Source of the DNA: Rheinheimera sediminis
GTDB lineage: Bacteria; Pseudomonadota; Gammaproteobacteria; Enterobacterales; Alteromonadaceae
Reading direction: 5' to 3'
DNA: 64,000 bases
Assembly: GCF_004005375.1 (NCBI RefSeq)
Contig: NZ_RZUF01000002.1
Coordinates: 120,678 to 184,677 of the forward strand
Both the position numbers and the translations under genes were made by a program. The notes under the pieces were generated by a model, which searched no databases, had not been told where the DNA came from, and worked only from the letters and a program-made list of their open reading frames with translations. This document shows positions 53,820 to 64,000 of this stretch, piece after piece (the first letter of the stretch is position 1; every line of letters starts with the position of its first letter).

Positions 53820-53936
53820 TTTAATGAGTATATTGATCCCGAAACAAAACAGCGCCTGATACCCTGTTGACTCCAACAGAAGCTGAGCCTGTTGCAACGA
53901 TAAGGATGCCGCCTAGCGGACATGCAGTGTGTTTTT

Positions 53937-54851
53937 ATGAGTAAATTAACCCAGCTTTTATGTTTAGCTGAATTAGATCAGAAGCAATTATCCGACCTGC
54001 TGGAGCTAGCGCTTCAGATCAAACAAAATCCAGAGCAATACAGCTCTGCGCTCAAAGGCAAAAGCATTGCCCTGTTGTTTGAAAAACCTTCTTTGCGAAC
54101 CCGCGTCAGCTTTGATGTAGGGATCAATAAATTAGGTGGTCACAGTGTCTATCTGGATCAGCAAAACGGAGCTATGGGCGTACGCGAATCAGTGGAAGAT
54201 TTTGGCAGTAATCTGGCCTGTTGGTGTGATGCCATAGTGGCGCGGGTCTATTCTCAGAAAACATTAGTGCAGCTTGCGCAAAGCAGTAAAAAACCAGTGA
54301 TTAATGCACTGAGCGATTTGTACCATCCTTGTCAGGCGCTGGCCGATTTGTTGACTTTAAAAGAGCATTATGGCGACTTAAGCAAGGTGCATCTGGCTTT
54401 TGTCGGTGATGGTAACAATGTTTGCCACTCGCTGATGTTAGGCGCTGCCATTATGGGCATGACGCTGACTGTGGTCACACCACAAGGCTTTGGTCCTGAT
54501 GCTCATGTATTGTTAAAAGCTCAGGCGATAGCAGAAAAAAGCGGCGCCAAACTGACCTTAAGTCAGCATGTGTCTGCTGCTGCCGGCGCTGATGCTATTT
54601 ACACCGACACCTGGTTGTCTATGGGCGCGAAGGCCGATCCTAAATTGGTCGAGAACCTGTTTGCGCCCTATCAAATCAATACCGCTGTGATGCAGCGTTT
54701 AGCGGTGAAACATTTTATGCACTGTCTGCCTGCACACCGTGGGCAGGAAGTGACCAGCGAAGTGCTGGACAGTGATAATTCCTTAGTGTTGCAACAGGCA
54801 GAAAACCGTATGCACGCTCAGAATGCCGTATTAGTCAGTTTATTTAGTTGA
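53937..54851 (+). CDS. argF: Ornithine carbamoyltransferase
   Basis: ArgF (304 aa) makes citrulline from ornithine and carbamoyl phosphate. Motifs are [12 protein letters not shown] (carbamoyl-phosphate loop, with Leu where STRTR enzymes have Thr), [23 protein letters not shown] and HCLPAHRG. The start is uncertain: ATG 53937 fits the family N-terminus ([13 protein letters not shown]), ATG 53922 adds five residues. A 117-bp gap with a small CTGTTG/CAACAG hairpin separates it from argB. Confidence 0.93.
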
Positions 54852-54859
54852 GGTTGGAC

Positions 54860-56062
54860 ATGAGTATCAAAAAAGTAGTGTTAGCGTATTCAGGTGGTTT
54901 AGACACATCAGCCATTGTGCCTTGGTTAAAAGACAACTATGACTGTGAAGTCATAGCTTTTGTTGCCAACGTAGGTCAGGGCGATGAAGAACTGGCTGGT
55001 GTGGAAGAAAAAGCTATTAAATCAGGTGCCAGCTCCTGTTATGTGGTTGACCTGCGTGAAGAACTGATCAAAGAAGTGATTTACCCAACCTTGAAAACAG
55101 GTGCAGTGTATGAAGGCCAGTATTTGCTGGGTACTTCTATGGCACGCCCTGTGATTGCCCGTGCTCAGGTTGAGCTGGCACTGAAATTAGGTGCTGATGC
55201 TTTATGTCACGGTTGTACTGGTAAAGGTAATGATCAGGTGCGTTTTGAAGGCGCTTTTGCTGCCTTAGCTCCACAGTTAAAAGTGATAGCGCCATGGCGT
55301 GAATGGCAGTTTAACTCGCGTCAGTCACTGCTGAATTACCTGGCTGAGAAAAATGTGCCTACTACAGCTTCAGCTACCAAAATCTATAGCCGTGACGCCA
55401 ACTTATGGCATATCTCGCACGAAGGCGGTGAGATTGAAAACCCATGGAATGAGCCATCAGACCAAATTTGGATGTGGACTAAATCTCCGGAACAAGCGCC
55501 GGATAAAGCCGAACATATTCAGTTAAGTTTTGAAAAAGGCGAACTGACCCAGTTAAACGGTGAAGCTGTAGCTCCGGTTAAAGCCATTGAAGTGCTGAAC
55601 GCTATTGGTTCAGAGCATGGTATAGGCCGTATCGACATAGTCGAAAACCGTTTAGTAGGTATGAAATCCCGTGGTTGTTACGAGACTCCTGGCGGTACTA
55701 TTTTAGTGGCGGCTTTACGTGCACTGGAATCTCTGGTGTATGACCGCACTTCACTGAAATACCGTGAAGAAGTGGGCTTAGAGTTTGCTCAGCTGGTGTA
55801 CGACGGCCGTTGGTTCACGCCGTTAAAAGATGCCTTATTAGCAGCTGCTACTTCATTGGCTGATCAACTGACAGGTGACATAGTGGTCAAGCTGTACAAA
55901 GGCAACGTGACTGTGACGCAACGCCGTTCACCCAACAGCCTGTACTCTGAAGCCTTTGCCACTTTTGAAGGTGATGAAGTGTACAACCAAAAAGATGCTG
56001 CAGGTTTTATCCGCCTGTATAGCTTAGCCAGCCGTATTCGTGCTTTGCATAGCAAAGGTTAA
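54860..56062 (+). CDS. argG: Argininosuccinate synthase
   Basis: ArgG (400 aa) joins citrulline and aspartate using ATP. The PP-loop is [18 protein letters not shown]. Other landmarks are [29 protein letters not shown] and [27 protein letters not shown] before ATG 54860 decides the start. It lies 8 bp after argF. A GGGCGGC/GCCGCCC hairpin follows at 56085-56104 before argH. Confidence 0.97.
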
Positions 56063-56084
56063 GCTTCTGGCGTGACTATTAATA

Positions 56085-56104
56085 GGGCGGCCACCAAGCC
56101 GCCC
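56085..56104 (+). other. Hairpin between argG and argH
   Basis: GGGCGGC, loop CACCAA, GCCGCCC form a 7-bp stem without a T run, in the 69-bp gap. It is probably an mRNA-stability or weak attenuation element rather than a terminator, since argH is likely cotranscribed. Confidence 0.5.
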
Positions 56105-56131
56105 ATTCTATTTGGATAAGAGGTATTTATC

Positions 56132-57511
56132 ATGGCGATGTGGGGTGGTCGGTTTACCGAAGCCAGTCTGGCCGAGTTTAGTGAATTTAATGACTCATTA
56201 AGTTTTGATTATCTGCTGGCGCAACAGGATATTCAGGCCTCCCGTGCCTGGACCATAGGCTTGCTTGAAGCAAGCATTATTACGGCAGCCGAAGCAGAGC
56301 AACTGGATCATGCGTTGGCGGATTTGGCTTTAGCGCTCGAATCTAATCCTAAGCTGCCATTGCAGACGCAGGAAGAAGATATTCACAGTTGGGTGGAAGC
56401 TCAGTTACAGCAAAAAATTGGTGGTGTAGCGAAAAAGCTGCATACAGGCCGCAGCCGTAACGACTTAGTAGCCACCGACTTACGCTTGTGGACCAAATTG
56501 AATGCCAATCAGGTTCGCAGCACGTTAATCACGTCCATTGGTGCCCTTATTACTTTTGCTGATGCGCATTTTGGTGCTGTGATGCCGGGCTTTACCCACT
56601 TGCAACGGGCACAGCCTGTGCTGGTCAGTCACTGGGCTTTGGCGTACATCGAAATGTTTAAACGGGATTTAAGCCGTATTGATGATGCTTTAGCGCGGAT
56701 GGATGTTTGTCCTTTAGGTTGTGGTGCTTTAGCCGGTACTGGTATTCAAATCGACCGCACAGCGTTAGCGCAGCGTTTAGGTTTCCAATCTGCAGCACTG
56801 AATAGCTTAGATGCCGTATCTGACCGGGATTATGTGGTGGAGCTGTCCGCTACTGCATCTTTGTGTATGACACATTTGTCGCGTTTATCTGAAGATGTGA
56901 TTTTCTTTTGCTCAGGCGAAGCGGCTTTCTTTAAGTTGGGTGATGCGATTAGCAGTGGCTCGTCTTTAATGCCACAAAAGAAAAACCCTGATGTGTTTGA
57001 GTTATTACGTGGCAAAACCGGCCGGGTGTTGGGTCATTTAGTGGCTATTTTGCATGTACTCAAAGGTTTGCCATTGGCGTACAACAAAGATATGCAGGAA
57101 GACAAGCAGGGCTTTTTTGATTTGATGGCCAGCTGGCAGCAATGTTTGCTGGTGCTGGCGACAGTACTGCCGCATTTATCCGTCAACGTTGAACGTTGCC
57201 GTTTAGCTGCTGAGCTCGGCTATAGCAATGCCACTGACCTTGCTGATTATCTGGTAGGAAAAGGCATAGCCTTCCGTGACGCTCATGAGTTGTCCGGTGA
57301 GCTGGTGCTGGTGGCTTCAAAGCAGCAAAAACCGCTGGAAGCTTTAGCTTTAGACGAAATGCAGCAGGTGTCGCCTTTAATCAGCGACGATGTTTTTGCC
57401 GCCCTGACCATTGAAGCAGGTCTGGCAAAACGCGCCTCTTTAGCCGGCACCAGTCCGGACAGAGTCAAAGAAGCGCTGGACGCCACTAAAGTCTGGTTTG
57501 AAGCACTCTGA
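56132..57511 (+). CDS. argH: Argininosuccinate lyase
   Basis: ArgH (459 aa) splits argininosuccinate to arginine and fumarate. It begins MAMWGGRFTEA and has EEDIHSWVEAQL, LHTGRSRNDLVATD, THLQRAQPVLVSHW and the signature GSSLMPQKKNPDVFELLRGKTGRV. It is the normal single-domain length, so it is not the ArgH-ArgA fusion known in some Vibrio and Moritella relatives. It ends the operon at a terminator. Confidence 0.97.
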   Translation: MAMWGGRFTEASLAEFSEFNDSLSFDYLLAQQDIQASRAWTIGLLEASIITAAEAEQLDHALADLALALESNPKLPLQTQEEDIHSWVEAQLQQKIGGVAKKLHTGRSRNDLVATDLRLWTKLNANQVRSTLITSIGALITFADAHFGAVMPGFTHLQRAQPVLVSHWALAYIEMFKRDLSRIDDALARMDVCPLGCGALAGTGIQIDRTALAQRLGFQSAALNSLDAVSDRDYVVELSATASLCMTHLSRLSEDVIFFCSGEAAFFKLGDAISSGSSLMPQKKNPDVFELLRGKTGRVLGHLVAILHVLKGLPLAYNKDMQEDKQGFFDLMASWQQCLLVLATVLPHLSVNVERCRLAAELGYSNATDLADYLVGKGIAFRDAHELSGELVLVASKQQKPLEALALDEMQQVSPLISDDVFAALTIEAGLAKRASLAGTSPDRVKEALDATKVWFEAL

Positions 57512-58933: not shown

Positions 58934-61507
58934 ATGAAAATAAAAAAAAATGCGTTAGCTCTTCAGATTGGTGCCGCTTTACAAGGTGCTGTGTTACTTA
59001 GTTTTAGTGGCTTTGCCCTTGCTGCAGAAGAGGATGATGCAGCCAAAGAAAAAGAAAATGTTGAGAAGATTGCTGTCGTTGGTTCCCGCGCCGCGCCGCG
59101 CTCAGTTGGAGAGTCTCCGGTACCTATCGATATTATAGGGGCCGAGGAGTTCGCCAATCAGGGTAATCCGGACATGCTCAATATGCTAAGCACCTTAGTT
59201 CCCAGTTTTAATATTAACACTCAGGCGATCAGTGATGCTGCGACTCTAATCAGGCCCGCAAACTTACGCGGTCTGGGTCCAGACCAAACATTGGTATTAG
59301 TGAACGGTAAAAGGCGCCACAGAGCTTCGGTTATTGCTTTTGCCGGTGGTGGTATATCAGATGGTGCCCAAGGCCCTGATATTTCAGTGATCCCTTCTGT
59401 TGCAATCAAGCAGGTGGAAGTATTAAGAGATGGTGCTGCCGCTCAATACGGCTCAGATGCCATAGCTGGCGTGCTGAACTTCCAGTTAAAAAACGACAAC
59501 GAAGGTGGCATGCTGGAAGCCAAGTGGGGTCAGTATTACGAGGGGGATGGCGCTAGTGAAACACTGGCTGGCAATATTGGTTTGCCATTAACAGATTCAG
59601 GTTCAGCTAACTTTAGCTTTGAGTACAAAAATGCAGATCCGACTGACCGCAGCGTGCAGCGTTCTGACGCTGCAGCTTTGATTGCTGCGGGCAATACGGC
59701 TGTAGCCAATCCGGCTCAGGTCTGGGGTTCTCCGGAAATTAAAGACGACTATAAGCTGTTTGCTAACCTGGAACTGGATCTGAAAAACGGCAAAGAAGCC
59801 TATGCTTTTGGTAACCATGCCTCGCGCGAAGTAGAAGGTGGTTTTTACTACCGTAACCCAAATCTTCGTTCTGGTGTTTATGCAGGTCCTAAAGTCACAG
59901 TAGGCGGGGTAGACTATAACACAGTAAGAGTAGGCGACATGACGCCAGATGATGGTAATAGTTGTGGGCCTTTACGACTGGACGCCAATGGTATCCCTAT
60001 TGCCTCTGATCTGGCTGCGGTCACAGCCGACCCGAACTGTTGGTCTTTTGTTGAACTGTTCCCGGGTGGTTTTACCCCAAAATTCGGTGGTACTGTGACT
60101 GACAGCGCCATTGCTGCTGGTGTAAAAGGCGAGCTGGTCGACACTGTCTTTTTTGACGCCAGTGCCTCTTATGGTCGCAATGAAGCTGAGTTTAAAATTA
60201 ACAACACGGTGAATGCGTCTATGGGCGCTAATTCTCCAACCAGTTTTACACCTGGTACTTACGTGCAAAGTGAGCTGGGGTTAAATTTCGATTTATTCCG
60301 TGAATTTGAAGTGGGTTTGTATGACGCCGTGGTGCTGGCCGGTGGGGTGGAGTGGCGTGAAGATACCTTTGAGGTCAAAGCAGGAGATGTTGCGTCTTAC
60401 ACTGTAGGTGTGCTGGCAGATCAGGGCTTTGGTATTGGTTCTAACGGTTTCCCCGGCTTTAAACCTGAAACCGCCGGTATATTTAGTCGCCACAACTTAT
60501 CGTTTTATACTGACCTTTCAAACTGGGTTACTGAGAGTCTGATGCTCAATGCCGCCTTAAGGTACGAGGATTACTCAGACTTTGGCGATACCACCAACTG
60601 GAAGATGTCTGGCTTGTACAAACTGACTGACAGTATCTCGATTCGCGGTGCTACAGGCACTGGCTTTCGCGCGCCAACTATAGGTCAGAGTAAGGTAGTG
60701 AACGTCAGTACGCTGTTCGGACCCAACGGTTTGATCGATCAGGCGACTCTGCCTCCAGATAACCCTATAGCAGTGCAAAAAGGTGGCAAGGCCTTAACGC
60801 CAGAAGAGTCGAAGAATATTTCTTTTGGTTTTGTCGGTGAGTTCGGGTCTACCCATGTCTCCTTAGACATGTACAGGATCGACGTGGAAGATCGCTTAAG
60901 CCAAACCTCTGGTTTGGAACTGACGACAGCAGATATTGATGCGTTACTTGCACTAGGGATAGCTGATGCAACCAGTTACTCCAGCGTCACTTTTTTTACC
61001 AATGACTTTGATACTGAAACCACAGGTGCTGATTTAGTGATCAGTCAGGATCTGGATTTAGGCTCAGGTGCGTCCAAGTTAAGCTTCTTAATGAACTGGA
61101 ATAAAACCGATGTGACTGTGGATCCAACCACTACCAACATCGATGACGTGAAAATCCGTACTCTGGAAGAGAACTTACCTAAAACCCGCGGAAGCATTAC
61201 CTTTAATCACGCTCAGGACAACTGGCGTGCTTTGGCAAGACTGAACTACTTTGGTTCATTTTGGGAAGTTGACGACACCTATGATGCAACTCAGGGCATG
61301 TCCGAAAGTTCTGCCTTTCTGGTTGATCTTGAACTGGCTTATATGCTCAGCAGTAATATCGAATTGATTGTAGGTGCGCAAAATGCCTTCGATAAATATC
61401 CGGGCTTAAACCCTTATGGCGATTCTGTAGGTGCTAAATACCCAGTGACATCGCCTTATGGTTTTAACGGTGGATATTATTACTTCAGAGGCGTGTATAC
61501 CTTCTGA
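58934..61507 (+). CDS. TonB-dependent receptor of the amine-oxidase locus
   Basis: An 857-aa outer-membrane receptor. The signal peptide ends ALAAEE, a TonB-box-like VEKIAVVGSR follows, then the plug domain (PDMLNMLSTLVPSFNINTQ ... RGLGPDQTLVLVNGKRRHRAS ... VEVLRDGAAAQYGSDAIAGVLNFQLK) and a barrel ending YYYFRGVYTF with terminal Phe. ATG 58934 begins the signal peptide; the in-frame upstream extension from 58853 is unlikely. The oxidase gene starts 109 bp downstream, so this receptor may bring in that enzyme's substrate. It is not closely similar to the Pho-linked receptor at 7647. Confidence 0.88.
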   Translation: MKIKKNALALQIGAALQGAVLLSFSGFALAAEEDDAAKEKENVEKIAVVGSRAAPRSVGESPVPIDIIGAEEFANQGNPDMLNMLSTLVPSFNINTQAISDAATLIRPANLRGLGPDQTLVLVNGKRRHRASVIAFAGGGISDGAQGPDISVIPSVAIKQVEVLRDGAAAQYGSDAIAGVLNFQLKNDNEGGMLEAKWGQYYEGDGASETLAGNIGLPLTDSGSANFSFEYKNADPTDRSVQRSDAAALIAAGNTAVANPAQVWGSPEIKDDYKLFANLELDLKNGKEAYAFGNHASREVEGGFYYRNPNLRSGVYAGPKVTVGGVDYNTVRVGDMTPDDGNSCGPLRLDANGIPIASDLAAVTADPNCWSFVELFPGGFTPKFGGTVTDSAIAAGVKGELVDTVFFDASASYGRNEAEFKINNTVNASMGANSPTSFTPGTYVQSELGLNFDLFREFEVGLYDAVVLAGGVEWREDTFEVKAGDVASYTVGVLADQGFGIGSNGFPGFKPETAGIFSRHNLSFYTDLSNWVTESLMLNAALRYEDYSDFGDTTNWKMSGLYKLTDSISIRGATGTGFRAPTIGQSKVVNVSTLFGPNGLIDQATLPPDNPIAVQKGGKALTPEESKNISFGFVGEFGSTHVSLDMYRIDVEDRLSQTSGLELTTADIDALLALGIADATSYSSVTFFTNDFDTETTGADLVISQDLDLGSGASKLSFLMNWNKTDVTVDPTTTNIDDVKIRTLEENLPKTRGSITFNHAQDNWRALARLNYFGSFWEVDDTYDATQGMSESSAFLVDLELAYMLSSNIELIVGAQNAFDKYPGLNPYGDSVGAKYPVTSPYGFNGGYYYFRGVYTF

Positions 61508-61616
61508 TCTTGCTGCATGACTGGCTCGGGCTGAGGAGCGTAATGCGCAGCCTGACGCCAGTTCTCTCTGATATTGACCCTTCTGCTGTTGGGCAGGATC
61601 TTGAGGTGTAGGGCCG

Positions 61617-63230
61617 ATGACAAATCCGGACAATAAACAAATCCCTGCTAAAGGCTTAACTCGCAGAGAAGCCTTGTTGTGGATAGGCAAAGTGGCAGGT
61701 TCTGCCGCTATGCTGCAGGCTGCAACTCTATTTGGAGTGCTCGCAGCGCCAGTAGCGGCACAAACTGAACAGGTGAAACTAAAGCCACTGACAACAGGGC
61801 GTAAAACTGTCTTGATACTCGGAGCTGGTATCAGCGGTTTGGTGGCGGCCTATGAACTGGGAAAGGCAGGCTATCATTGTAAAATCCTTGAAGCATCGCA
61901 CAGAGCTGGTGGCCGGAATTTCACTATCCGCCATGGTGATTTTATTGATGAGTTGGGGAATCCACAATTTTGTAACTTTGACAAAGACCCAGATCTTTAC
62001 TTTAACGCTGGGCCAGCCCGTATTCCGGCTCACCATACCGCTATTTTGCATTATTGCCGTGAGTTTGGGATCGAAATGCAGCTGTTTTGCAATCATAACA
62101 AAAACTGCTACACCCAGGATAACACTGCTTTTGGCGGCAAAGCAGTGCGTATTGGTGAATATGAAGCTGATACCAGAGGTTTTTTCAGTGAACTGATGGC
62201 GAAATCTATTCAGTCTCAGGCAAAACTGGATGCTCCTTTTGACGACATAGACAAACAAAAGTTGCTTGATTTTTGCCGTTCTTATGGTGATTTATCCAGT
62301 GATTTTACCTATGAAGGCAGCGTGAGAGCGGGTTATAAGTCAGGCGGTATTTTATCGCCTGGTGTACTGAAAACTCCCAGAGCCTTGGCGGATTTACTGC
62401 AAAGCGACTTCTGGGCTGGTGCTATGCACTTTGGTGAACTCTCTGATCAGTCTGCTGCATTAATGACGCCTGTAGGGGGCATGGATAAAATTGTCGATGC
62501 GTTTTTAAGCCGGCTTGTTGGCAAAGTACAATTAAAAGCTCAAGTACAGAAAGTACAACTTTTACCGCTTGGGGTGGAGGTGAGTTATTGGCTGGATGGA
62601 CAGCTGCAAGTTGAACAGGCGGACTATTGCCTGAATTGTATTCCAGCACAGTTGATGGCTGGTATAGAAAACAATTTCCCGGCTGACTATGTCGGTGTGA
62701 TGCGCCAGCTAAAACGGGGCAAATTATCAAAAATTGCACTGCAAGCCAAAGAGCGGTTTTGGGAAAAAGATCAGATTTATGCCGGTATTAGCTGGACCAG
62801 TCAGGATATAACCCAAATTTGGTATCCTTCTCATGGCATGTTCAAAGCGAAAGGCATTTTATTAGGAGCTTATAGCTGGGATCCCGCCATCTCGGATCGA
62901 TTTTCTGCCATGACAAATCAAGAGCGTATAGCTACAGCTATTGCTCAGGGGGCTAAGTTGCATCCGGACTATGCCAAATACATTGAGCAGGGCAACAGTA
63001 TTTGTTGGCAGCGAATGAATCATATGCTCGGTTGCGGCGCAGTTTGGTCTGAAGATCTGTTAAAAACCAGTTTTGCCAGGTTACAAGCACCAGTTGGCAG
63101 TCATTATCTGGTTGGTGATCAGGTCAGCTATCATCCGGGTTGGCAGGAAGGAGCTGTGCGCTCTGCCTGGTATGCGATGGAAAGTATTCAGCAGCAAGAG
63201 CAACAAAAACAACGACAGGGGGCTGCATGA
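61617..63230 (+). CDS. Tat-exported flavin amine/L-amino-acid oxidase
   Basis: A 537-aa FAD enzyme of the flavin monoamine oxidase/L-amino-acid oxidase family. The N-terminus is a Tat signal (LTRREALLWIG, twin Arg16-Arg17) ending near VAAQT, so it folds in the cytoplasm and acts in the periplasm. The dinucleotide motif is VLILGAGISGLVAAYELGKAG (about 65-85), followed by EASHRAGGRNFTIR. The C-terminal FAD segment includes YLVGDQVSYHPGWQEGAVRSAW. Such enzymes turn an amine or amino acid into an imine. The overlapping cytochrome c gene suggests electrons go to the respiratory chain rather than to oxygen. Substrate unknown. Confidence 0.85.
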   Translation: MTNPDNKQIPAKGLTRREALLWIGKVAGSAAMLQAATLFGVLAAPVAAQTEQVKLKPLTTGRKTVLILGAGISGLVAAYELGKAGYHCKILEASHRAGGRNFTIRHGDFIDELGNPQFCNFDKDPDLYFNAGPARIPAHHTAILHYCREFGIEMQLFCNHNKNCYTQDNTAFGGKAVRIGEYEADTRGFFSELMAKSIQSQAKLDAPFDDIDKQKLLDFCRSYGDLSSDFTYEGSVRAGYKSGGILSPGVLKTPRALADLLQSDFWAGAMHFGELSDQSAALMTPVGGMDKIVDAFLSRLVGKVQLKAQVQKVQLLPLGVEVSYWLDGQLQVEQADYCLNCIPAQLMAGIENNFPADYVGVMRQLKRGKLSKIALQAKERFWEKDQIYAGISWTSQDITQIWYPSHGMFKAKGILLGAYSWDPAISDRFSAMTNQERIATAIAQGAKLHPDYAKYIEQGNSICWQRMNHMLGCGAVWSEDLLKTSFARLQAPVGSHYLVGDQVSYHPGWQEGAVRSAWYAMESIQQQEQQKQRQGAA

Positions 63231-63847
63231 AAAATTTGATCTTAGGTTGTCTGTTGTTTTGCGTTTCTGTTCAGGCTGAAACCTTTCACAAGGATGCGCA
63301 ATATTGTCTGGTCTGTCATGGCAGCAATGCGCAGGGCAACGAAGCCATCAGTGCACCTAATCTGGCTATTTTACCTGATTGGTACTTATCTTCTCAGCTA
63401 CAGGCATTTAAATCCGGTTGGCGTGGTCATCAAACAACAGATGCCTACAGCAAAGAAATGATGGCTGTGGCTCAAAGTATGAGTCCTGAGGATGTAAAGC
63501 GCGCTATTGGTTTTATTACTGCTTTTCAGGTCAGCAAAGCAGTTGAAACTCTGGATGGTGATATCAGTCATGGTAAAGATTTATTTCAGACGTGCGCGGC
63601 TTGTCATGGAGCCTCAGCTGAAGGCAATAAAACCCTGGGAGCCCCTCCTTTGGCGGGGCAGTACAGCTGGTATTTGTTGAGGCAGCTTGAAGCATATCGC
63701 AGCGGGCAGCGTGGTGCTGCTGCACAAGACAGTAATGGTGCGATGATGAAACAAATAGCCACAGCCATTAAAACTGACCAGGATTTGAATGACCTCGTGG
63801 CTTATATCAATACTTTAGCTCTTCCATCAACAAAGGTTAAACATTAA
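63227..63847 (+). CDS. Periplasmic di-haem cytochrome c (c4-like)
   Basis: A 206-aa secreted cytochrome with two haem sites, CLVCH (27-31) and CAACH (123-127), in two similar class-I domains; each has a downstream Met-containing segment that could supply the axial ligand (SKEMMAVAQSM; NGAMMKQIATAI). Signal peptide MKNLILGCLLFCVSVQA. Its ATG overlaps the oxidase TGA (ATGA) with a GGGGG-rich ribosome binding site, so the two proteins are translationally coupled. It most likely accepts electrons from the exported oxidase and passes them to a terminal oxidase. Confidence 0.88.
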   Translation: MKNLILGCLLFCVSVQAETFHKDAQYCLVCHGSNAQGNEAISAPNLAILPDWYLSSQLQAFKSGWRGHQTTDAYSKEMMAVAQSMSPEDVKRAIGFITAFQVSKAVETLDGDISHGKDLFQTCAACHGASAEGNKTLGAPPLAGQYSWYLLRQLEAYRSGQRGAAAQDSNGAMMKQIATAIKTDQDLNDLVAYINTLALPSTKVKH

Positions 63848-63861
63848 CAGGAAATGATTTC

Positions 63862-64000
63862 ATGAAAACATGGACAAAATTAGCTTTTTTATCACTTTGC
63901 GTTGCAAGTACAGGCCTGCTGGCTGAAGTGAAACGTTATCCTCTGCCAGACAACAGCACTTTTCCTATTGCCAATGCAGTGGAAGTGAATAAGCTGGTGT
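63862..64000 (+). CDS. Exported RidA-like protein, 5' part only
   Basis: The window ends after 46 codons. The visible part is a signal peptide (MKTWTKLAFLSLCVASTGLLA) followed by EVKRYPLPDNSTFPIANAVEVNKLV, which matches the N-terminal pattern of RidA/YjgF proteins (FPIxxAVEVxxxVYxSG). RidA proteins hydrolyse reactive imines or enamines to keto compounds. An exported version right behind an exported amine oxidase would detoxify its product. It begins 15 bp after the cytochrome gene, with AGGAAATG upstream. Family assignment rests on a short stretch. Confidence 0.6.
   Translation, partial: MKTWTKLAFLSLCVASTGLLAEVKRYPLPDNSTFPIANAVEVNKLV

Follow-up and report, generated by a model that had tools for sequence, protein, structure and literature searches.

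A conserved gene set for a predicted periplasmic L-amino-acid:cytochrome c dehydrogenase with an exported Rid3-like partner in Rheinheimera sediminis

The closest described counterpart of the gene set reported here, which lies at the right end of a 64-kb stretch of Rheinheimera sediminis DNA, is lao-cccA-ridA of Gluconacetobacter diazotrophicus (Rodrigues et al. 2016, PMC5053998). The passages of that paper covered here, as with all papers cited below, describe a twin-arginine translocation (Tat) signal and joint expression, and propose a joint function for the three proteins and a probable periplasmic location of the enzyme. Mutants in lao formed 95% fewer indolic compounds, no auxin and little indole-3-pyruvate from Trp. 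The paper also cites an earlier finding that mutants in cytochrome c maturation reach only 5% of the wild-type auxin level, and it gives the operon, from a database, as conserved in Caulobacter and Xanthomonas. Akram et al. 2025 (PMC12224317), starting from NicA2 relatives (2911 sequences), found many Tat/cytochrome flavin amine enzymes to be dehydrogenases. By stopped flow, related enzymes with a Tat signal and an adjacent cytochrome used the cytochrome; most tested enzymes with a Tat signal and no adjacent cytochrome were fast with O2. The main text of that study mentions neither RidA nor amino acid oxidase, nor does the word covalent occur in it. A periplasmic pair of L-amino acid oxidase (LAAO) and RidA is on record for Chlamydomonas (PMC10805672).

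The stretch analysed, called the window below, comprises 64,000 nucleotides of contig NZ_RZUF01000002.1 from a genome of 4.49 Mb. Its right end carries four genes on the + strand, to which all coordinates refer, for a TonB receptor, a flavoenzyme, a cytochrome and a RidA-type protein. We give a probability of about 75% to the reading that this gene set specifies a periplasmic L-amino-acid:cytochrome c dehydrogenase together with a dedicated electron carrier and a scavenger of imines. An earlier sequence-only reading of the window had proposed an exported amine oxidase, cytochrome and RidA-like protein as one periplasmic deamination module, and had implied that such a chain was new. As a whole, that interpretation is partly supported. 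Its mechanism is likely but not new, since the core oxidase/cytochrome/RidA idea was published in 2016 together with the notion of joint function (PMC5053998). To this the present analysis adds the breadth of the gene set, its division between two cytochrome types, the predicted export that typifies its Rid3-like partner, and a signature cysteine whose chemical meaning can be tested.

The gene set and its conservation

The flavoenzyme gene (61617..63230; 537 aa) was matched by PF01593 with 126 bits (cut-off 19.8). Among the matches listed, the top PDB sequence match of its product was the LAAO of Rhodococcus opacus (2jae, E 1.2e-75), which was also the top Foldseek match of the AlphaFold2 (AF2) model (pLDDT 88.3; TM-score by target 0.94). 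Arg135 (62019..62021) has an aligned Arg counterpart in 2jae and two further LAAO chains and was kept as Arg in 128 of 128 loci; we take its position to be that of the carboxylate-binding Arg of LAAO enzymes, and propose it as the substrate-carboxylate anchor. A Tyr-Pro pair at 403-404 likewise aligns with LAAOs (Tyr in 99/102 rows, Pro in 102/102). By domain match, modelled fold and aligned Arg, the protein is classed as a member of the LAAO-type flavin amine oxidoreductases. The earlier call of a flavin enzyme holds, with the general amine oxidase replaced by the LAAO type. An identity as a NicA2-type nicotine enzyme was rejected: the best solved matches, among the 60 of 100 listed, are LAAOs, and in a comparison that rests on a C-terminal profile, entries 5ttj, 7khn and 7kho, presumably NicA2, reached only E 0.055 to 0.77, versus 1e-6 to 1e-10 for LAAO and L-glutamate oxidase chains.

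The N-terminus of the flavoenzyme, MTNPDNKQIPAKGLTRREALLW...APVAAQ, is of Tat type by eye, as the sequence-only reading had noticed. It combines a hydrophobic stretch with the twin arginine R16-R17 (61662..61667) in LTRREALL, which is nearly invariant across an 11-row alignment. In the family survey described below, a Tat motif was frequent in every group (35/36 di-haem, 15/19 mono-haem and 32/47 other rows) and so does not separate cytochrome-linked from other enzymes; Tat and export assignments followed motif and hydrophobicity rules, and the leaders of the window's own proteins were judged by eye.

The flavoenzyme stop codon (TGA, 63228-63230) and the start codon of the cytochrome gene (ATG, 63227-63229) share the bases ATGA, an overlap that had been seen correctly. 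The cytochrome gene (63227..63847) encodes 206 aa with PF00034 in two stretches, a Sec-type leader by eye and two CxxCH motifs, CLVCH (63305..63319) and CAACH (63593..63607). The best solved relative is cytochrome c4 (1etp, E 2.5e-16), and the product, with two predicted c-type haem domains, resembles cytochrome c4; it is treated below as an exported, c4-like di-haem cytochrome c.

The RidA-type gene begins 14 bases past the cytochrome gene. Its 5' part occupies 63862..64000, and it crosses the window end to the equivalent of 64347 (L002:5940-6425, 161 aa). Read on the contig, the complete gene encodes the RidA domain (PF01042, 69.9 bits; cut-off 27.3) and the catalytic Arg, in the motif PARS, that the earlier reading had expected, and the alternative that no RidA lies past the window end was rejected by this match. 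The protein has the leader MKTWTKLAFLSLCVASTGLLA, and its closest solved chains, 9bkc and 9bka, are both Rid3 proteins. Rid3 is marked by a kept catalytic Arg and by Ile in place of the RidA Tyr (PMC4433059). The window protein has Arg137 and Ile36, the latter placed at the RidA Tyr position from a motif reading with no RidA row aligned, and in sequence it fits the Rid3 subfamily, as a putative exported Rid3-like imine deaminase. Two Rid3 proteins, PFL_1385 and PSPTO_3006, hydrolyse LAAO-made imines in vitro (PMC5619798). The word 'periplasm' does not occur in the main texts of PMC5619798 and PMC4433059, nor does 'signal' in the former or 'signal peptide' in the latter.

The neighbourhood of the enzyme gene was surveyed in two ways. 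An even draw from the phylum had the enzyme in 27 of 398 genomes, at 31 places; one gave no locus and the host's own was omitted, leaving 29 loci. A same-strand c-type cytochrome gene lay beside the enzyme in 21 of these, a RidA gene in 21 and both in 16, and the three-gene linkage on which the sequence-only reading depended is kept in other genomes. A larger set began with 122 loci that yielded an enzyme frame; removal of six duplicates left 116, and 13 more were dropped for short flanks. Among the remaining 103 distinct loci, a cytochrome was found at 55, RidA at 57, both at 44 and neither at 35. This larger set leans to close relatives, one of its sources being the best 80 of 580 loci, and cytochrome, RidA and receptor genes were detected with profiles made from the surveyed loci themselves. 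Without L109, whose enzyme is in pieces, 102 rows remained: 36 di-haem, 19 mono-haem and 47 other. Such conserved linkage indicates that the arrangement is more than chance, and a chance neighbourhood was rejected on these counts.

Of 35 plasmid records with a match, 10 provided further loci, nine of these loci being pseudomonadotan. In the annotated pseudomonadotan loci, 'cytochrome c' stood directly downstream of the enzyme in 8/8 and 'RidA family protein' was present too in 4/8; the ninth, unannotated locus (L161) has a mono-haem cytochrome by profile. In two of the nine, from Roseinatronobacter (L159) and Dinoroseobacter (L164), the enzyme-cytochrome pair is lined up with genes for cytochrome c oxidase, ctaD among them, a hint at an electron route to cytochrome c oxidase.

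Loci with the enzyme and a Rid protein also occur outside the cytochrome-linked group. A Gram-positive Metabacillus plasmid (L155; NZ_OK052578.1, 2983-6246) carries the enzyme, a Rid protein, tatA and tatC in a row; no cytochrome was found at this locus, and the enzyme has Gly-Trp at residues 473-474, a site discussed below. Cyanobacterial loci (L083, L090, L091, L092, L096, L098 and L100) have the enzyme with an exported-type Rid protein and no cytochrome found nearby (for L091, within 773 bases downstream), and would serve as natural controls for the use of O2.

Among 61 RidA copies linked to the enzyme, all 59 readable ones keep the catalytic Arg, and 56 of the 61 had an exported-type N-terminus by the hydrophobicity rule. 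By sequence, a predicted exported N-terminus is the rule among the linked Rid3-like copies. Of the five copies not called exported, L018 and L031 fell narrowly under the threshold, L060 is a cut copy, and a leader is clearly lacking in L035 and L038; L055, L065, L068 and L069 were called exported on a longer N-terminal stretch and score low on a shorter one. In L035 and L038, where the copy is leaderless, the neighbouring enzyme reads Gly-Pro-Trp at the 473 site, and a cytochrome is absent. A lipobox-like pattern was seen in six linked Rid proteins (L024, L028, L037, L039, L053 and, doubtfully, L048), which are possibly membrane-anchored in the periplasm. In another Rheinheimera (L008, 428-836), tblastn matched ridA in two pieces, and this copy may be broken or misassembled.

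Cysteine 473 and cytochrome linkage

Cys473 (63033..63035) marks most cytochrome-linked enzymes. In a first quick tree, all cytochrome-linked enzymes fell on one side of a branch (labelled 97 with a star; 58 rows, 55 of them cytochrome-linked), and no column differed more between the two sides than 473, with Cys in 55/58 cytochrome-side rows versus 0/44 others. Column 466 was a near-equal separator (Arg in 54/58 versus 1/44, with Lys, Asn and Gln as alternatives). The neighbouring residue 474 was Trp in 41/44 rows outside the cytochrome side, and mostly Gly, Ser, Ala or Tyr within it. Counted by locus, a cytochrome was adjacent to 52 of 55 enzymes with Cys473 versus 3 of 47 without. Because column 473 had been chosen as most divergent on these same 102 rows, 26 further loci were examined (30 loci minus the repeats L138, L143, L151 and L154). 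A cytochrome was adjacent in 16/16 of those with Cys473 and in 2/10 of those without; the 26 are not all independent, as the L135 and L136 enzymes are near-identical and the 10 plasmid loci were chosen from 15 of 35 records listed. Over the resulting 128 loci, Cys473 and Trp474 exclude each other, Trp474 occurring in 0/71 Cys rows and 53/57 others.

A more careful enzyme tree, built without columns 470-476, contains a 23-row branch that includes the window enzyme, 21 of its members having a di-haem partner and two none (100/100), and a separate 26-row branch with Cys and mono-haem partners (100/100). The cytochrome type tracks the enzyme tree in this way, di-haem in one branch and mono-haem in another. 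Five cytochrome-linked enzymes without Cys473 form a branch of their own and keep Gly-Trp. A single clade of all cytochrome-linked enzymes was not retained, the deep branching being unsettled in a larger quick tree and in the careful tree (59/2). A single clade comprising all 49 Cys rows, a group named after the trees had been seen, was rejected by the approximately unbiased (AU) test at p 0.022; such a rejection would mean two gains of Cys, or losses. The Cys-cytochrome counts rest on few evolutionary events and are not independent. An independent-pairs test had 3 pairs on branches marked with a star, a number that could not reach significance.

We consider that Cys473 probably carries flavin adenine dinucleotide (FAD) covalently, as in the monoamine oxidases (MAO), a claim separate from the dehydrogenase reading and less certain. 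A profile of the stretch around Cys473 aligns from its position 10 with MAO-B 388-444 and full-length MAO-A 397-453. Assuming no gap between positions 10 and 19, profile position 19, which is Cys473, falls on MAO-B 397 and MAO-A 406. MAO-A Cys406 is presumably the flavin-linking cysteine. In MAO-B, FAD is bonded to Cys397 (PMC8836602). The PDB also holds putrescine oxidase A394C, under the title 'Structure-based redesign of cofactor binding'. Against the window enzyme, the A394C chains scored 44.6 to 47.8 bits and the wild type 42.8; slightly higher scores of this kind are expected if putrescine oxidase residue 394 aligns with Cys473.

The coincidence with the MAO positions, the putrescine oxidase redesign with its scores, and the fact that Cys is the one residue able to form this flavin bond are what stand in the way of a rival account that has close to an even chance, namely that Cys473 is not a flavin link and instead replaces a residue of the substrate pocket or has a structural role. 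The mutual exclusion with Trp474 would suit such a replacement, as would the aligned residue of L-glutamate oxidase: 2e1m has Glu there, and further deposits have Phe, Gln or Lys, a variety implying that this site has been a target of engineering in that enzyme. Column 338 is Cys-enriched as well (55/58 cytochrome-side rows versus 13/44), and Cys473 may be one half of a disulfide, a reading that was weighed and set aside. Cytochrome linkage itself is compatible with other residues at this site, given the five cytochrome-linked rows with Gly-Trp, and column 466 separates the groups almost equally well. NicA2 (cage Trp427) and Pnao (Trp434) use a cytochrome, so the Cys is not needed for cytochrome use (PMC9396064).

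The cytochrome-linked enzymes are predicted to be periplasmic L-amino-acid:cytochrome c dehydrogenases, most of them with covalent FAD. A wider scenario is tentative, at rather less than even odds: the lineage replaced the aromatic-cage region by a FAD-binding Cys in two branches with different cytochromes, possibly in two gains, and makes up, with exported Rid3, a widely distributed route by which external amino acids feed respiration, Cys473 being a predictor of cytochrome use. In the open-licence PMC literature, nothing was found for roLAAO Arg84, PuO A394C, or an LAAO with covalently bound FAD and cytochrome c.

Proposed route, electron acceptor and substrate

In the proposed route, the Tat signal would direct export of the folded, FAD-loaded enzyme. 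An L-amino acid would be held by Arg135 and pass hydride to FAD, as expected from the family, with Cys473 probably holding the FAD covalently in the manner of the monoamine oxidases. The reduced flavin would then give its two electrons, singly, to the co-encoded c4-like di-haem cytochrome rather than to O2, and the cytochrome would in turn deliver them to a haem-copper oxidase; the host genome carries ccoP as well as tatC. The exported Rid3-type protein would then split the imino acid within the periplasm, yielding ammonia and a 2-keto acid; hydrolysis of imines is on record for its Rid3 relatives. In the window's branch, the TonB receptor probably imports the substrate or a substrate-yielding peptide, which is the weakest step.

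The evidence that favours the cytochrome over O2 as electron acceptor is indirect, and consists of the linkage, the maturation mutants of Gluconacetobacter (PMC5053998) and the kinetics of other Tat/cytochrome enzymes (PMC12224317). Two marks of the latter dehydrogenases, a Tat signal and an adjacent gene for an exported c-type cytochrome, are both found in the window, the leaders being judged by eye.

Several observations weigh against the dehydrogenase reading. Within the set of Akram et al., clade 1 is slow with O2 and with its own cytochrome alike, so cytochrome adjacency alone is no proof of the acceptor (PMC12224317). No cytochrome lies nearby in 47 of the 102 family rows, and these members may be plain oxidases. 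RidA is absent beside 5/36 di-haem and 6/19 mono-haem loci, which makes it dispensable, and the host encodes two further Rid proteins elsewhere in its genome. The distribution of the enzyme is patchy: in a draw of relatives it was found in 14 of 98 genomes (E <= 1e-60), and in the genus in 6 of 22, host included, which marks it as accessory. The Lys on the flavin side of oxidases, here Lys372, occurs in 124/128 loci; NicA2 and Pnao likewise keep this Lys while using a cytochrome, so it does not decide between oxidase and dehydrogenase (PMC9396064).

The kept Lys is one of the points that would suit a periplasmic O2-using LAAO making H2O2, with the cytochrome as a peroxidase or an unrelated respiratory part and RidA clearing imines. 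The fold and the nearest solved relatives, deposited as L-amino acid oxidases, fit this alternative too, as do the many family members without a cytochrome nearby and the fast reaction with O2 of most tested Tat-signal enzymes lacking an adjacent cytochrome (PMC12224317). We nevertheless regard it as unlikely, because the cytochrome goes with particular branches and has a matched type, here c4-like, and because the Gluconacetobacter pathway needs cytochrome c maturation (PMC5053998).

The TonB-dependent outer-membrane receptor gene (58934..61507; ATG start; PF07715 and PF00593) precedes the flavoenzyme gene, as the earlier reading had it. With a profile built on the window's receptor, a receptor was found within 2.5 kb, on either side and in either orientation, at 26/36 di-haem, 5/19 mono-haem and 7/47 other loci; one of the di-haem matches, at L068, is weak (24 bits), and short loci cut matches at the locus end. 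Several phyla in the non-di-haem groups are not expected to have TonB receptors. Two paralogous receptors occur in the same genome: one with 56% identity (L128, 2889-8016) is encoded divergently from a dipeptidyl peptidase IV gene, and the other (L129) near genes for a pyridoxal phosphate (PLP) enzyme of Cys/Met metabolism and a PF00375 symporter. The neighbours of these two paralogues suggest a peptide or an amino acid as cargo.

That the enzyme instead acts on another amine (peptide-derived, N-methyl or cyclic) imported by the receptor, and not on free L-amino acids, is the least likely of the alternatives: a TonB receptor should be superfluous for free amino acids, the peptidase gene beside the 56% identical receptor hints at peptide-like cargo and the loss of the usual Trp474 from the aromatic-cage region should alter the pocket, but Arg135 and the LAAO-aligned Tyr-Pro are kept, the neighbours of the third receptor fit amino acids equally well, and its relative in Gluconacetobacter works in the route from Trp (PMC5053998).

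If the dehydrogenase reading is right, many 'flavin monoamine oxidase' annotations in Pseudomonadota would denote enzymes that feed respiration rather than make peroxide, with one residue helping to tell them apart. Rid3 proteins would gain a home, in the periplasm beside an imine producer, and the role of cytochrome c maturation in the auxin of a plant endophyte would be explained. Cys and non-Cys members of one family would offer a test of how a flavoenzyme chooses between O2 and a cytochrome.

In a terminator scan, the gaps that separate the four genes were free of terminator-like sites; two sites lay within the enzyme gene and two past ridA (one two-way). The scan is weak, with 5 sites in all versus 4.0 in shuffles. 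Beyond the Rid gene, the next long frame is on the opposite strand and by inspection encodes a penicillin-binding protein. Upstream, the genes at 53922-57511 read by inspection as argF, argG and argH of arginine biosynthesis, with no obvious tie to the module.

Comparison with known systems

No statement of the Cys signature, of a di-haem/TonB variant or of Rid3 as an exported subfamily was found in the open-licence PMC literature, which leaves absence unproven. When the published lao-cccA-ridA primers were searched in 299 genomes, three had a match, and one locus (L136) matched all six with 0 mismatches. That locus has Cys at the 473 site, one haem motif in its cytochrome and, by eye, a leader on RidA. 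The window set thus resembles lao-cccA-ridA in its order of enzyme, cytochrome c and RidA, in the Tat signal, the leader on RidA, the enzyme family and the Cys at the 473 site, with 37% identity between the two enzymes. Unlike the window set, lao-cccA-ridA has a mono-haem cytochrome, belongs to another tree branch and is linked to auxin from Trp, and no TonB receptor is mentioned in the passages covered (PMC5053998).

With the NicA2/Pnao-type dehydrogenases, the window module shares the Tat signal, the adjacent Sec-exported cytochrome c and the proposed electron route to respiration (PMC12224317, PMC9396064); unlike them, its enzyme is of LAAO type and has Cys-Gly in the cage region. The Rhodococcus opacus LAAO (2jae) is the best match in sequence and fold, with an Arg aligned to Arg135, but has Ala-Trp where the window enzyme has Cys-Gly, and is deposited as an oxidase. 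The Rid proteins PFL_1385 and PSPTO_3006 (PMC5619798; PDB 9bkc, 9bka) are the top solved relatives of the window's Rid protein and keep the Arg; unlike those two as published, linked copies of the window type typically bear an exported-type N-terminus. LAO1/LAO2 of Chlamydomonas likewise combine a periplasmic LAAO with a RidA partner gene and act on external amino acids, but belong to a eukaryote, with an H2O2-producing oxidase and, in the passages covered, no cytochrome partner (PMC10805672).

By position arithmetic, monoamine oxidases A and B have a Cys at the aligned flavin-attachment position, as the window enzyme does. They are mitochondrial and use O2, and carry a cage Tyr next to this Cys, where the window enzyme has Gly.

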